Source of the DNA: Planktomarina sp.
GTDB lineage: Bacteria > Pseudomonadota > Alphaproteobacteria > Rhodobacterales > Rhodobacteraceae
NCBI GenBank assembly: GCA_020630595.1
Contig: JAHDBC010000001.1
Span: 200,189-264,188, forward strand
Length of the DNA stretch: 64,000 nt
Reading direction: 5' to 3'
Positions 2,667 through 45,263 of this stretch are shown one piece after another. Made by a program: the position numbers and the translations under genes. Numbering within the stretch: the first letter of the stretch is position 1; the number at the start of each line of letters is the position of its first letter. The notes beneath the pieces are model-generated. The model was not told where the DNA came from and did not search any database. It saw only the letters and a program-made list of their open reading frames with translations.

Positions 2667-3326
2667 TTATTTGGCAAACGGTGCGGCGCTGCCCCACAAT
2701 TCTTTCACACGCGCGTCGCGCCCACATGCATTGCGATACCGGGTATAAGCGTTTGCTTTGGACAGCGGCCCGAACCGCGTCAGGATGATGTCGGACTGTT
2801 TGTAATAATCCTGATGATACGCATCTGCCGGATAAAACGGCCCTTCGTTCAGAACCGGTGTCACCACGCTGCGGCCCAGGTCTGATTGGGCCTGTGAAAT
2901 CGCTGCGTTTGCGGCAGACCGTTCAGAACCATTGCCTGCAAAAATGGCGGTACGATAGCTTTCGCCCCGATCACAGAACTGGCCCCCAGCATCCGTCGGA
3001 TCCACAGACCGCAAGAACAGGTGCAGCAACTGACCATAGCTGACCACGTCCGCGTCATAGGTGATTTGCACAACTTCATAATGCCCCGTGCCGCCGCCGG
3101 TGACCTGTTTGTATGTGGGGTTGGCCACGGTGCCGCCCATAAAGCCGGATACGGCTTCCTGTACGCCGCGCACCTTTTCGAAATCTGATTCCACGCACCA
3201 GAAACAGCCGCCCGCGACGGTCATCGTTTGGATGTCGCGCGCCTGTGCCTGCGTGGATGAAAGGCTGGCGGCGATAAATGTGGCCACAGCCAGAATAACG
3301 GGTTTGATCAAGCTGGTTTGAGTCAT
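2667..3326 (-). CDS. msrA: Peptide-methionine (S)-S-oxide reductase, exported form
   Basis: This enzyme reduces methionine-S-sulfoxide in oxidised proteins. The active-site motif GGCFWC spans residues 39-44, with Cys41 as nucleophile, and the typical EAVSGFMGG and GHYEVVQ segments follow. A further Cys in YRNACGR near the C-terminus could act as resolving residue. The start at 3326 is chosen because a strong GGAGGG lies a few bases upstream and the first 29 residues then read as a signal peptide ending around AQA, which would place the enzyme in the periplasm. A longer frame begins at 3431 but would include the upstream control region. It is divergent from the sulfotransferase-like gene and ends flush against the PfkB kinase gene. 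Confidence 0.94.
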
Positions 3327-3364
3327 CGGACCCTCCTTCGTTGCAACATCCATTGCAGGGTCGG

Positions 3365-3400
3365 TTGTGACAGACAATAAACAGACCCGTGACGTCACAA
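3365..3400. promoter_or_regulatory. Nested inverted repeats between divergent genes
   Basis: In the 91-base gap between the divergent msrA and sulfotransferase-like genes, TTGTGAC (3365-3371) pairs with GTCACAA (3394-3400) across 22 bases. The right arm lies in a perfect 10-base palindrome, GTGACGTCAC (3389-3398). The arrangement fits a dimeric repressor or activator site serving either gene. No regulator is identified; that it is an operator is inference. Confidence 0.35.
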
Positions 3401-3417
3401 GGGTTTGAGGTTTTGTA

Positions 3418-4140
3418 ATGAAGATCGCCATGTGGTCAGGGCCGCGGAATCTGTCGACCGCCTTGATGTATGCGTTTGGAAATCGCGCTGATTGTGCGGC
3501 GGTCGATGAACCGTTCTACGCAGCCTATCTGGCGCGGTCAGGCGCAGATCATCCCATGCGCAACGCTGTTTTGGCATCGCAGCCTACCGATCCGACCGTT
3601 GTGATGGACCGGCTGACGGGGTCAAACCCCGATGGCGCGCCCCTTTGGTACCAGAAACATATGACCCACCATATGGATGGGATCGAACTGGATGGGTTGG
3701 CGCATCTGACCAACGTGTTCCTGATCCGCCATCCGGCCCGTGTGATCGCAAGTTACGCGCGGAAGCGCGAAAACCCATCGTTGGATGATTTGGGATTTGC
3801 CCGTCAGGCAGACATTTACGAACACTGCATCGCGCTGGGCCAAACGCCGTTGGTTGTGGACAGCGACGATATTCTGGCCGACCCGCCGGCGGTTATGTTG
3901 GCCCTATGTGGCGCACTTGGCATTTCGTTTGATCCGGCGATGCTGGCATGGTCCGCAGGGCCGCGATCTTATGATGGGGTGTGGGCGGCGCATTGGTACG
4001 ACGCCGTTCATGCCTCAACCGGGTTGGATGCAAAACGCAGCGCAATCCCTGTGTTGGGGTCTGAATATCAAGAATTGCTGTCACAGGCGCTGCCCTTTTA
4101 CGAACGAATGTCTGCGGTCAGCATCGGTGTTAATGGTTAA
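3418..4140 (+). CDS. Sulfotransferase-like family protein
   Basis: A 240-residue cytosolic protein with the two marks of PAPS-dependent sulfotransferases. The first is an N-terminal phosphosulfate-binding loop, [12 protein letters not shown], at residues 6-17. The second is a 3'-phosphate-binding stretch, [17 protein letters not shown], near residues 101-117. Conserved EPFY follows the first motif at residues 31-34. Members of this short family are widespread in proteobacteria, are often annotated only as sulfotransferase family, and have no known acceptor. A GAGG ribosome-binding site sits seven bases before the ATG. The gene is monocistronic: msrA diverges upstream and a terminator follows before the convergent argG. 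Confidence 0.72.
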
Positions 4141-4213
4141 TATCCAAACAAGGGACCGCGCAGGATATTAACCGACGCAGCATATGCACACCCTGTCTGT
4201 ACGGGGGGTGTAC

Positions 4214-39831: not shown

Positions 39832-42519
39832 ATGCTCGGTTTTGGAACACTTGCGAAAAAGGTCTTTGGGACGCCCAACGACCGCAAAGTGAAGGCGACA
39901 AAGCCGACGATCGAAAAGATCAACGCACTTGAATCTGAATTTGCCGCGTTGTCCGATCAGGGTTTGATCGACAAGACTGAAGATCTGCGCAAACGTGCAC
40001 GTGATGGCGAAGATCTGGATGATCTGCTGCCCGAAGCGTTTGCAAACTGCCGCGAAGCCGCGCGCCGTGCGTTGGGGTTGTGGGCCTTTGATGTGCAGCT
40101 GATGGGTGGCATATTCCTGCATCAGGGCAACATTGCAGAAATGAAAACGGGCGAAGGCAAAACGCTGGTGGCCACGTTCCCCGCTTATCTGAACGCATTG
40201 ACGGGCAAAGGTGTGCACGTTGTGACCGTGAACGATTATCTGGCCCGCCGGGATGCAGAGTGGATGGGCAAGGTGTTTGCGGCATTGGGCATGACCACAG
40301 GCGTTGTGTATCCCCAGCAGCCCGAAGATGAAAAAGCTGCCGCTTACGCCAGCGATGTGACGTATGCCACGAACAACGAACTGGGCTTTGACTATCTGCG
40401 CGACAACATGAAGTCAGAGTTGAAGCAAATCCACCAACGCTATCACAACATGGCCATCGTGGACGAAGTGGATTCGATCCTGATCGACGAGGCACGAACA
40501 CCGCTGATCATTTCGGGTCCGGCGCAAGACCGTTCTGCGCTGTACCAGACCATCGATAAACTGATCCCGCGTGTGGAAGAAGATCACTTTACGCTGGATG
40601 AAAAATCGAAAAACGTGACCTTTACCGATGAAGGGAACGATTTTCTGGAACAGGTTCTTTCTGACGAAGGCATCCTGCCCGAAGGTCAATCACTGTACGA
40701 TCCGGAATCCACAACCATCGTGCACCACGTGAACCAAGGTTTGCGGGCCCACAAATTATTCACAAAAGACAAAGATTATATCGTTCGCGATGGCGAAGTG
40801 GTTTTGATCGACGAATTTACAGGCCGTATGATGGCAGGGCGTCGTTTGTCTGACGGGTTGCATCAGGCGATCGAAGCCAAAGAAGGTGTGGACATCAAAC
40901 CAGAAAACGTCACGCTCGCCTCTGTTACATTCCAAAACTATTTCCGGATGTATGATAAGCTGGCCGGGATGACCGGGACAGCTGCGACCGAAGCAGACGA
41001 ATTTCAGGAAATTTATAACCTTGGGGTGGTCGAAGTGCCCACCAACCGCGGCGTCGCCCGTGTGGACGAAGACGACCAAGTTTATCGCAGCACACAGGAA
41101 AAGTTTCAGGCGATTGTTGAAGAAATTAAAGTGGCGCATGACCGGCGTCAGCCTGTTCTGGTCGGAACGACATCAATTGAAAAATCCGAATATCTGTCAC
41201 AGTTGCTGACGCAGGCTGGCGTTCAGCACAACGTCCTGAATGCACGCCAGCACGAACAGGAAGCCCAGATCGTAGCCGATGCGGGCAAATTGGGTGCTGT
41301 GACAATCGCAACCAACATGGCGGGTCGCGGCACTGACATTAAGCTTGGTGGCAATGTCGAATTCAAAATCATGGAAGCCATCGCCGCAGACCCCGATGGT
41401 GATCCTGCAGCCATTCGCGAACGGATCGAAGCGGAACACACCAAAGACGAACAAGCCGTAAAAGACGCTGGCGGTCTGTATGTGTTGGCCACGGAACGCC
41501 ACGAATCCCGCCGTATCGACAATCAGCTGCGCGGGCGGTCTGGCCGTCAGGGTGACCCGGGCAAATCTTCGTTCTTTTTGTCGCTCGACGATGATCTGAT
41601 GCGGATCTTTGGGTCGGAACGGCTGGAAAAAGTGTTGTCGACGCTTGGGATGAAAGAAGGCGAAGCCATTATTCATCCGTGGGTCAACAAATCGTTGGAA
41701 CGTGCGCAGGCGAAAGTCGAAGGGCGCAATTTTGACATTCGCAAGCAACTGCTGAAGTTCGATGATGTGATGAACGACCAACGCCGCGTGATTTTTGGTC
41801 AACGTCGCGAAATCATGGAAGCTGAAGATCTTTCTGAAATCACCACGGATATGCGCCATCAGGTGATTGATGATCTGGTCACACTTTACATGCCGCCAAA
41901 ATCCTATGCCGATCAATGGGATGGCGAAGGTTTGCAAGCTGCCGTCGCCGAAAATCTGGGTCTTGATCTGCCTGTTGCCGACTGGACTGAAGAAGAAGGC
42001 GTTGATGACGATGACATCCGCGAACGTCTGGAAAAAGCATCCGATGAACATATGGCCAAAAAGGCTGTCGATTTTGGACCGGAAAATCTGCGCACTATTG
42101 AAAAGCAGGTCTTGTTGGAAACCATTGATGGCAAATGGCGCGAACATCTTCTGACGTTGGAACATTTGCGGTCTGTTGTCGGATTCCGTGGCTATGCGCA
42201 GCGTGACCCGCTGAACGAATACAAAGCCGAAGCGTTTCAATTGTTCGAAGGTCTGCTGGATGGGCTGCGCAACCAAGTGGCAAAAATCCTTGGGACAGTC
42301 CGCATGCGGACCGAAGAAGAACAGCGCGCCATTATGGAGGCGTTGATCCAACAGCAAGCCGCGCTGCAACAGGCGGCGCAGCAGCAGGCCGCACAGGCCG
42401 GGGCTGCATCAGAGGGATTCGATGAAAACGATCCTGCAACGTGGGGCAACCCGGGTCGCAATGATGCCTGCCCCTGTGGTTCCGGGAAAAAGTTCAAACA
42501 CTGCCACGGAAAGGTCTAA
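39832..42519 (+). CDS. secA: Preprotein translocase ATPase SecA
   Basis: SecA drives export through SecYEG. The 895-residue protein carries Walker A GEGKT (about residue 105), the [12 protein letters not shown] Walker B, the preprotein cross-linking domain, the second motor domain with [14 protein letters not shown], and [19 protein letters not shown]. The C-terminus ends in a zinc motif ([14 protein letters not shown]) that binds SecB and phospholipid. The ATG at 39832 follows GGAAG. It is followed by a weak hairpin and the exported protein gene at 42680. Confidence 0.98.
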
Positions 42520-42679: not shown

Positions 42680-43738
42680 ATGCTGGGCTATCGAAATACA
42701 GTTTTGCCACGTTTTGGGATGGTTGCGGGCGCCATGGTGATTGCCATTGGTATCGGTGCGGTCATGCAAAAAGGGGACAGTGCGCATCTGACTGCACTTT
42801 ATGCGCAACCAGATACTGCGCAGACAAACACAACATTGGTGACCGCCACAGATGTGCCGCCTGCGTCGCCAACGTTCCAAATCCCGGAAGTGCCCGCACC
42901 CGTTCAAATGGCGCAGGCCCCGACCACCGTTGCACCCATGTTGCAGCAGCCTGTGATATCCGGAATTCAAATGACATCGTCTGATGCAAGCGTGTCAGCC
43001 CCGGCAGATGCGACATCGACGTTGCGCAGCCCATCAATCATGCAGGCAACGGAATCTGGTTGTCAGGCTTCCGTAACGGCCACACCGGGCCCGGCGGCAT
43101 TGATTGACCTTGCTGTTTCTGCGCCCTGTTTGCCATCGGAACGGATCGTCATCCACCACGAAGGCATGATGTTCACGGGTCAAACCGATGCAGATGGGCA
43201 GGCCAAGGTGATTGTACCTGCGTTGAAAGTTGAATCCGTTGTCATGACGTCATTTGCGGATGGGACCACCATCATGACGCCAACATCGACGCCATCACTC
43301 AATTTCTACGACCGGGTTGTTCTGCAGTGGCAGGGCAATGCGGGGCTTCAAGTCCATGCTTTTGAATATGGTGCGACCTATAATCAGGACGGACATGTTT
43401 GGGCTGGCCGGCCGCAATCCATCGCGACGGCGGCGGCTGGGGACGGCGGCTTTATCATGCAAGTGGGTGTCGCAGATGCGCTGAACCCGATGCTGGCCGA
43501 AGTTTACACATTTCCCAGCGGGATTACGACGCGTTTGGGCGATGTCGGGTTGACGGTCGAAGCTGAAATTACACGCCACAACTGCGAACGGGATGTTGCC
43601 GCACAGACACTGCAATTCGTCCCTGAACAGGGTTTGGCGATCCAAGACCTATCTTTCACAATCCCAACATGCCAAGCGATTGGCGAGTATCTGGTTTTGA
43701 ACAATCTTCTGGAACCGGTGAACCTGGCCCAGCGATAA
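42680..43738 (+). CDS. Exported protein of unknown function downstream of secA
   Basis: A 352-residue protein. An uncleaved or cleaved hydrophobic N-terminal segment (about residues 12-30) precedes a Pro/Ala/Gln-rich stretch (40-115) and a folded part from about residue 125 (ESGCQASVTATPGPAALIDLAVSAPC), probably beta-rich. Four cysteines in the folded part (about residues 128, 152, 300 and 330) could form two disulfides in the periplasm. In roseobacter genomes such proteins are sometimes labelled translocase only because of secA next door; I see no translocase motif. The next gene, 31 bases on, is an OmpA fusion, so both may act at the envelope. Confidence 0.78.
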   Translation: MLGYRNTVLPRFGMVAGAMVIAIGIGAVMQKGDSAHLTALYAQPDTAQTNTTLVTATDVPPASPTFQIPEVPAPVQMAQAPTTVAPMLQQPVISGIQMTSSDASVSAPADATSTLRSPSIMQATESGCQASVTATPGPAALIDLAVSAPCLPSERIVIHHEGMMFTGQTDADGQAKVIVPALKVESVVMTSFADGTTIMTPTSTPSLNFYDRVVLQWQGNAGLQVHAFEYGATYNQDGHVWAGRPQSIATAAAGDGGFIMQVGVADALNPMLAEVYTFPSGITTRLGDVGLTVEAEITRHNCERDVAAQTLQFVPEQGLAIQDLSFTIPTCQAIGEYLVLNNLLEPVNLAQR

Positions 43739-43769
43739 CAATCGCGGGCCTTCGCAAGGGGGTGCGATT

Positions 43770-45263
43770 GTGAAAATTTGGCGTTGCGCGGCATTTGTTG
43801 CCGCGTTTTGCGTTTGTGCTGTTCAGGCGGCCAGCCAGACCGTTACGTTATCGCTGAAAGATGGTTCGTTTTCCGTTTCTGGGAAAATGCGATCGTTTGA
43901 CGGCGAATTTTACGATCTGGATACCCCGCTGGGCCCGATGACACTGTCTGCTGCGACAACAGACTGTCTTGGGTCTGCATGCCCGGATCCTGACGATTAC
44001 GTTCCTTTCATTCGCGTTTCGGGGTCCGCAGCGCTGGGTGAAGTGCTTGTGCCGGCGTTGATTGAAACCTTTGCGACCCAACGGGGCTTGTCCCAAGTGG
44101 CGCGCGTGACTTCGGAAACGACGACCCAGATTGATCTTGTTCGATCTGATGCGCGTTTGGTTGCAACATTTGAAATTTCACTATCGTCAACAGATGGCGG
44201 GTACCGCGCTTTGTCCGAAGGCCAATCTGATATTGTGTTGGCCCGGCGTGGTCCGACAGCGGCAGAAGATGATGCCATACGCGCCGCCTATGAAGGTGGG
44301 TCGACAGATCCAATTCGTTTGGCTGTGATCGGATGGGAAGCGCTGCGGCTTTACACCAATGCGGATAATCCGATCACCGCCCTGACGGTGCGCGATTTGA
44401 TCGGGATGATTGCGGCGCCTGGCTCCAATTGGCCCACCACAACAGATAGACCTGTCCATTACCGTGGTGATGCGGACAGCATTATCGCGCTGCAACAGCA
44501 ATTGGGGCAAACAGAGCCGACCGTTCAATTGGGCGGTGGCGCGGACACAGATCCCGGTATTCTATATGTCACGCCAAACCTGTCCTTGCCACTGACGCCT
44601 GTCCGGCTGACTGGAACCTGTGGCACAGCGCAAGCATCCGTACCGTTTCAGGAAAACCAAAACCCGCTGGCGGCCCCGGTCTATCTGGTCACATCCGCCA
44701 TCCGCCAGTCTGCGCTTATGCGTGAATTCCTTGATTTTACATTGGATCTGCCTGCACAGCGGGTGATTGACCGTGCGGGGTTCATCAGTCGCACCCCGTC
44801 AGAGGCGGCGCTTTCTTCGGAAAATGGCATTCTGGAAGACGCGATTTTGAACGCGACCGATGATACATCAATCGCTGATCTGCAGCGGACGGTTCAAGCG
44901 TTGAAGGGGTATGGGCGTCTGTCACTGACATTTCGGTTCACCGGCGGAACCATGGAACTGGATGATGTGTCACGGTCCAATCTTGATTTTGCGGCGTCCC
45001 TTTTGCGACAGGGCCGATATCGTGATCGGCAAATACTGTTCGCTGGTTTCAGCGATGGTGTTGGCGATCCCGACGCCAATCTTGCCTTGTCCCGCGACAG
45101 GGCCCGCGTAGTGCGGGACGCAATTCGGACCCGGATGGGGGAAAACGCCCCACCGCTTGCCCAGTTCAGAACCCAAGGGTTTGGTGAAACGCTTCCTTTG
45201 GCATGCAACGACACGCGCTGGGGGCAGAACCAAAACCGTCGTGTGGAACTTTGGATTCGCTAA
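43770..45263 (+). CDS. Phosphate-binding-protein-like / OmpA fusion protein
   Basis: A 497-residue exported protein (signal peptide residues 1-23). Residues about 75-350 read as a PstS-like type II periplasmic binding fold (FIRVSGSAALGEVLVPALIETFA, SDIVLARRGPTAAE). Residues 385-497 are an OmpA-type peptidoglycan-binding domain (LTFRFTGGTMELDDVSRSNL, FAGFSDGVGDPDANLALSRDRA, NRRVELWIR). A binding domain tied to the cell wall suggests a sensor or scaffold rather than an ABC transport component; no pst genes are nearby. The start is GTG behind GGGGG; the stop overlaps radC by four bases. Confidence 0.84.
   Translation: MKIWRCAAFVAAFCVCAVQAASQTVTLSLKDGSFSVSGKMRSFDGEFYDLDTPLGPMTLSAATTDCLGSACPDPDDYVPFIRVSGSAALGEVLVPALIETFATQRGLSQVARVTSETTTQIDLVRSDARLVATFEISLSSTDGGYRALSEGQSDIVLARRGPTAAEDDAIRAAYEGGSTDPIRLAVIGWEALRLYTNADNPITALTVRDLIGMIAAPGSNWPTTTDRPVHYRGDADSIIALQQQLGQTEPTVQLGGGADTDPGILYVTPNLSLPLTPVRLTGTCGTAQASVPFQENQNPLAAPVYLVTSAIRQSALMREFLDFTLDLPAQRVIDRAGFISRTPSEAALSSENGILEDAILNATDDTSIADLQRTVQALKGYGRLSLTFRFTGGTMELDDVSRSNLDFAASLLRQGRYRDRQILFAGFSDGVGDPDANLALSRDRARVVRDAIRTRMGENAPPLAQFRTQGFGETLPLACNDTRWGQNQNRRVELWIR

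Follow-up and report, generated by a model that had tools for sequence, protein, structure and literature searches.

A PstS-type fold fused to an OmpA-type wall domain behind secA in Planktomarina: a possible wall-tethered docking protein

What might a phosphate-receptor fold be doing when it is joined to a domain of cell-wall-binding type and no transporter stands beside it? The question is raised by a protein of 497 aa, read from a GTG start at 43770..45263 (+) of the window, that is, the whole 64,000-nucleotide stretch of Planktomarina sp. DNA analyzed here. From its open reading frame, Pfam matches, family alignment and structural model, this is a three-domain exported protein, ordered as a signal peptide (by eye), an N-terminal module (N-module), a PstS-type domain and an OmpA domain. 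The initial annotation had described a PstS-like fold fused to an OmpA wall domain. Both of these domains are borne out by Pfam, a family profile and an AlphaFold2 model, while the N-module at aa 22-72 had been overlooked.

The PstS-type fold spans aa 78-340 (44001..44789, +), with a confident lobe 1 and a low-confidence lobe 2 (aa 192-301). The match of the PBP_like_2 family (PF12849) to aa 132-237 scores 25 bits, slightly short of the 27-bit cut-off (24.9 bits in a whole-genome search), and 15 of 20 relatives match this family at E<=0.01. Searched against solved structures, a profile of 20 relatives covers both lobes of the periplasmic-binding-protein fold and recovers phosphate-binding proteins with E-values between 1e-24 and 1e-17 (1twy at 1e-24, 4n13 at 7e-24, 4gd5 at 3e-23), as well as OmpA-type wall domains. 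The AlphaFold2 model, built on a four-sequence alignment and deepened with the viral-contig locus L058, has a mean pLDDT of 62.5 and contains a small beta module (aa 24-67), a confident lobe 1 and the OmpA domain; pLDDT in lobe 2 is almost all below 50. Lobe 1 of the model superimposes on the Clostridium perfringens phosphate-binding protein 4q8r with Z 16.7 and an rmsd of 1.5 over 118 residues. The domain has the fold and ancestry of PstS (PDB 4gd5, 4q8r, 1twy and 4n13) and is clearly a descendant of the phosphate-binding proteins, from which it differs in its rewritten anion loops, its added wall domain and the lack of Pst genes among the neighbors checked.

The OmpA-type peptidoglycan-binding domain occupies aa 384-497 (44919..45260, +) according to Pfam, the model and the alignment. 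The OmpA family (PF00691) matches aa 390-490 with 42 bits against a cut-off of 27.2, and in the AlphaFold2 model this part aligns to 7bba, 7rjj and 3td5 with Z 14.8-16.1. Residues D429 and R444, 15 residues apart, are each kept in 85 of the 86 alignment rows described below, at positions which we take to be those of the diaminopimelate-binding Asp/Arg pair of Acinetobacter baumannii OmpA. The domain shares its fold, the Asp/Arg pair at 15-residue spacing and the NRRVE end with known OmpA-type domains (3td5, TagL 7bba, Pal and YfiB), but rides on a PstS-type domain where the known ones ride on a barrel, a lipoprotein or a secretion protein. These conserved residues and the modeled fold suggest that the protein is anchored to peptidoglycan through its OmpA domain. 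Four cysteines are likewise conserved, C66, C284 and C479 in 86/86 rows and C71 in 85/86. A defense role was considered and dropped, since PADLOC returned weak ZorB/MotB matches to the OmpA part, with a best E of 5.6e-5.

Whether the binding fold could still hold phosphate was assessed in an alignment of 87 rows together with this genome's own PstS and 4gd5. Counts refer to 86 rows, a row with a broken frame (L033) being excluded, and correspond to 85 genes since L018 and L120 are one gene; in a tree of the rows the window's clade holds 70 (69 genes) and the other clade 16, plus two viral-contig rows. At the position of anion-binding loop 2 (44187..44201, +) the window protein has STDGG where PstS has GSSAG, and its loop 3 region (44454..44489, +), under an uncertain alignment, reads VHYRGDADSIIA against R..SGT of 4gd5, with no SGT. 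The window protein therefore has neither the uncharged GSS-type loop 2 nor the R..SGT loop 3 of the PstS anion pocket. Across the rows, which are a non-random set drawn from a relatives search, the upper part of a ranked family list, X-less genomes (see below) and some paralogs, an acid (Asp/Glu) is found in loop 2 in 68/70 rows of the window's clade vs 6/16 of the other clade. The loop 3 motif SG[ST] is kept in 1/70 vs 10/16 rows, the alignment of this loop being uncertain within the window's genus. A full phosphate signature, defined as an acid-free loop 2 plus a loop 3 with both SG[ST] and Arg, occurs in 0/70 vs 5/16 rows. Of two controls, L058a carries an uncharged loop and an SGT; the PstS of this genome combines the GSSAG loop 2 with HGT in loop 3 and therefore fails the strict signature at loop 3, which makes loop 2 the safer half of the test.

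The rewritten loop 2 of the window's clade often reads TDEGFADL outside the window's genus, where it is conserved across many genera and both of its middle positions are acidic in 38/58 rows. An altered loop that is so common in the clade points to a pocket that was rebuilt rather than randomly changed, and these loops make phosphate binding unlikely there. The suggestion that the protein is a wall-fixed sensor or buffer is thus not supported for phosphate, for which the pocket largely lacks ligand-binding residues, while a sensor for another ligand is conceivable; a new ligand or a new interface are both possible roles of the pocket as judged from its residues. Two of the five full-signature rows, L029 and L030 of genomes G034 and G020, both in the other clade, adjoin the partner gene X described below. 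These phosphate-type pockets beside X suggest that X may have begun with a ligand-binding partner, a point against the docking reading preferred below.

The most conserved part of the protein lies elsewhere. The N-module (aa 22-72; 43833..43985, +) follows the pattern VTL..DG..G....FDG..Y...T..G....A....C.G..CP and is small and all-beta in the model. Its mean identity in the 58 clade rows outside the window's genus is 66%, the highest of all parts, with a short lobe-1 return segment at 61%, the OmpA domain at 57% and the main lobe segments at 44-45%. A Pfam scan of six members gave no match above cut-off (MGP3_C, YabP, RimP SH3 and AAL_decarboxy were weak), and comparison with solved structures gave no convincing relative, so that the scan exposes a small exported module covered by no Pfam family. 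The module is present in 17 of 41 relatives, the identical 17 that carry the fusion (the copy in G009 being frame-broken), and in 13 of 299 genomes of the phylum, all 13 in the window's family, whose genomes are only partly listed in that sample. It also varies in copy number, with two copies in this genome's paralog and three in a G022 protein of 656 aa. In three further proteins, 87, 90 and 102 aa long, it is the only module and follows a start that by eye resembles a signal peptide.

Several observations on the paralogs and free modules may be noted. The stand-alone N-module proteins (87-102 aa) lie at L163:3029-3292, L164:2174-2446 and L165:2145-2453, and one is directly downstream of a fusion paralog. 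Paralogs with tandem N-modules are found at L166:2403-4373 (three modules) and L167:1975-3792 (two), and this genome holds a paralog of 605 aa on contig C42. In two genomes PilJ-domain proteins are encoded beside fusion paralogs (L167:916-1848 and L168:3699-4640), and parts of Bmp-type or branched-chain amino-acid transporters occur near the paralogs at L166, L115 and L119. A sensing role is possible for paralogs with such neighbors, although the four of them that were counted lack the full phosphate signature.

Directly upstream of the fusion gene lies gene X (42680..43738, +), which encodes 352 aa with an N-terminal hydrophobic segment, a Pro/Ala-rich linker and a conserved C-terminal half; four cysteines (C128, C150, C302 and C331) are invariant in 12/12 aligned members. 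The initial annotation called X an exported protein of unknown role; by eye it has a single hydrophobic N-terminal segment, and neither Pfam nor NCBIfam gave a match at E<=1. Among solved structures X has one weak match, ZipA, at E 0.022. Its structure model has a mean pLDDT of 39.5, so the topology of X rests on a reading of the sequence. Long forms of X, with open frames of 667-953 aa, were seen at L053, L054 and L057, and two sequences in the 12-member alignment of X match the Ig-like domain Big_9.

To what extent do the two genes belong together? In a survey of 246 genomes from 245 genera of the family (fusion at E<=1e-25, X at E<=1e-10), the fusion was found in 180 and X in 182; 158 genomes had both genes, 22 just the fusion, 24 just X and 42 neither (Fisher p 6e-15, from a test that ignores shared ancestry). 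One of the 22 fusion-only genomes, G282, has a weak X of 77.5 bits. Among the 130 of the 158 genomes for which both places are listed, the genes are adjacent in 128: in 127, X immediately precedes the fusion gene on its strand at no more than 300 bases, the gap being 20-226 bases (median 31), and the 128th case, G254, was seen from reading frames, while G101 and G226 have the two genes on separate contigs. The proposal of an uncharacterised pair is upheld by these figures, whereas the pairing is not constant, as seen from the 22 and 24 genomes with one gene only and from the window's own genus, where X was found in 0 of the 19 relatives searched, 10 of which have an intact fusion gene. The fusion can therefore stand without X, and X is a true, usual and non-obligatory neighbor of the fusion gene.

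The reading we prefer, tentatively and at somewhat less than an even chance, is that the fusion serves as a docking protein tethered to the wall, usually together with X, and is not a phosphate receptor. The adjacency with X, the domains and the loss of phosphate-type loops in the clade are direct observations. On this basis the protein would be exported to the periplasm and then fixed to peptidoglycan through its OmpA domain. The PstS-type domain, its anion pocket rebuilt and, in the window's genus, shortened, would no longer act as a phosphate receptor and would form, with the conserved N-module, a docking surface. The N-terminus of X would anchor it in the inner membrane and the Pro/Ala-rich linker would let it extend into the periplasm, so that the pair could connect the wall to the inner membrane. 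Through this arrangement a binding protein may have been reused as an envelope part, with an unnamed partner that accompanies it in 158 of the 246 genomes.

The conservation of the altered loop could also be explained by a new small ligand, and a wall-fixed sensor or buffer for a non-phosphate ligand, its loops forming a new specific pocket and X relaying occupancy inward, is a doubtful though substantial alternative. The conservation of loop 2 over many genera argues for such a pocket, as do Arg160, present in 84/86 rows, the phosphate-type pockets of the X-paired G020 and G034, and the paralogs beside PilJ-domain proteins (two genomes) or transporter parts (three loci). However, members of the window's genus have a lobe 2 of 109-113 residues, about 20 fewer than the 130 of the four other-genus relatives measured, and have lost the SGT; conservation along the protein is lowest in the main lobe segments; and of the five paralogs with sensor or transporter neighbors none of the four counted has the full signature. 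The locus also holds neither an importer nor a kinase among the genes checked. By Pfam, the genes checked over about 37.2-52.3 kb of the window include no recognized importer, in line with the earlier statement that no transporter is nearby, and no Pst importer gene was among the checked neighbors of the fusion gene.

Selection and decay within the genus bear on a further alternative. Here the fusion would be a dispensable leftover in the window's genus: most members would have lost X, the pocket would have decayed, and the gene itself would then break or vanish. We consider this unlikely. An intact fusion gene is present in 11 of 20 genomes of the genus, the window's own included; in G009 (L033) the gene is split over three frames, G007:C8:66714-67092 is an apparent broken remnant, and in seven genomes the listed matches cover the OmpA part only. 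The genus also sits on a long stem branch in the tree. Several of these genomes are incomplete, however (completeness ranges over 67-100%), so some absences may be gaps, and the window's own genome retains both the fusion gene and X. The OmpA residues are intact, and dN/dS over the whole gene is 0.10-0.27 in six same-genus pairs (one with saturated dS), which shows purifying selection on the fusion gene in these relatives; the window's own copy has a highest identity of 47% and therefore no close relative for dN/dS. An accessory scavenger that feeds phosphate from the wall to the Pst transporter is very improbable and mostly refuted by the sequence, since clear descent from phosphate-binding proteins and the database name of the architecture are set against a full signature in 0/70 rows, an acid in the anion loop in 68/70 rows of the window's clade, and a better PstS match of this genome on another contig (C2).

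The docking reading can be extended to the genomic setting. The local gene order is NUDIX, ArgJ and PpiC (-), secA, X and the fusion gene (+), and RadC, DnaJ and DnaK (-), with secA (39832..42519, +; from Pfam and neighborhood comparison) immediately upstream of the pair. Further neighbors are a 2OG-Fe(II) oxygenase, an SH3 protein and an inositol monophosphatase (Pfam), together with a 275-aa protein that is export permease-like by eye and has no Pfam match at E<=1e-5. A second substrate-binding protein of the genome is on C20, beside genes that are transporter-like by eye. In 12 X-less loci (L011-L014, L103-L109 and L113) secA directly precedes the fusion gene, and the upstream stretch retrieved for L015-L020, six loci of the window's genus, shows no secA. 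In the docking reading the pair would be expressed behind secA, possibly from a shared transcript. Going further, the fusion, X and the N-module may make up an envelope apparatus that is particular to this lineage and tied to the transcription unit of SecA, although we rate this extended proposal as rather unlikely. If it is true, a new small wall-associated beta module, found single, in tandem and free, and a former phosphate receptor turned docking domain would together connect the wall with a partner in the inner membrane, and this connection would act during protein export or envelope growth.

The architecture itself is already known, and the new points are the rewritten pocket, the partner X and the N-module. 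The closest named family is "phosphate ABC transporter substrate-binding/OmpA family protein" (WP_152441739.1, Pseudoalteromonas sp. THAF3), in which, as in the window protein, a single chain carries first a PstS-type and then an OmpA domain; it is 25.8% identical to the window protein over 84% of the query. Unlike the window protein, it keeps the SGT loop, has no N-module in the alignment and has other neighbors; X was not found in the collection that holds it. The window protein has the domain order of this family, but its pocket argues against the phosphate transport that the name implies, and in most sampled members of the window's family the protein is probably not a phosphate receptor.

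Six of 289 genomes of the class match at 1e-25, five from the window's family and the sixth (G442) with the binding fold alone, and a single-protein search of a genome collection gave one relative, probably because its patterns are narrow. One named relative is that of Yoonia maritima, and similar fusions far off occur in Pseudoalteromonas and as tandem pairs on IMG/VR contigs. A scan of viral contigs gave 40 loci, of which L058 alone covers the binding fold too, and further scans gave the same protein on two contigs. The tandem fusion proteins of the IMG/VR contig lie at L058:1423-2784 and 2848-4200, with an SGT loop in one.

As functional analogs of the docking proposed here we take YfiB-YfiR, wall-binding envelope proteins thought to dock other proteins; YfiB shares its OmpA-type domain with the window protein. 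DalA (RSP_1200), annotated as an SCP/PR1-domain protein, is a further such analog, a wall-binding envelope protein thought to dock others, according to passages of PMC10470522. A literature search over titles and abstract openings found nothing on a PstS-OmpA fusion or on X, and passages of PMC9548881 and PMC8839378 name PstS and OmpA proteins separately.

Regulatory signals at the locus were also searched. The PpiC-secA pair of the window resembles RSP_1168-RSP_1169 of Rhodobacter sphaeroides, where passages of PMC9275681 place a binding peak of the envelope regulator CenR, which belongs to an essential two-component system, at RSP_1168 (PpiC)/RSP_1169 (secA), in favor of an envelope role. 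A CenR-like core site, in a pattern guessed from the printed sites, is absent from the PpiC-secA gap of the window; over the whole window the pattern is at chance level (17 found vs 18 expected), and promoter and terminator scans were also near chance level. A stable hairpin (43738..43771, +) spans the 31 bases that separate X from the fusion gene and ends at the GTG start. Its calculated stability is reached by 1.6% of mononucleotide shuffles and was set beside that of six roughly cut gap regions from relatives, a comparison from which no conservation is claimed. Such a hairpin could tie together the translation of both genes.
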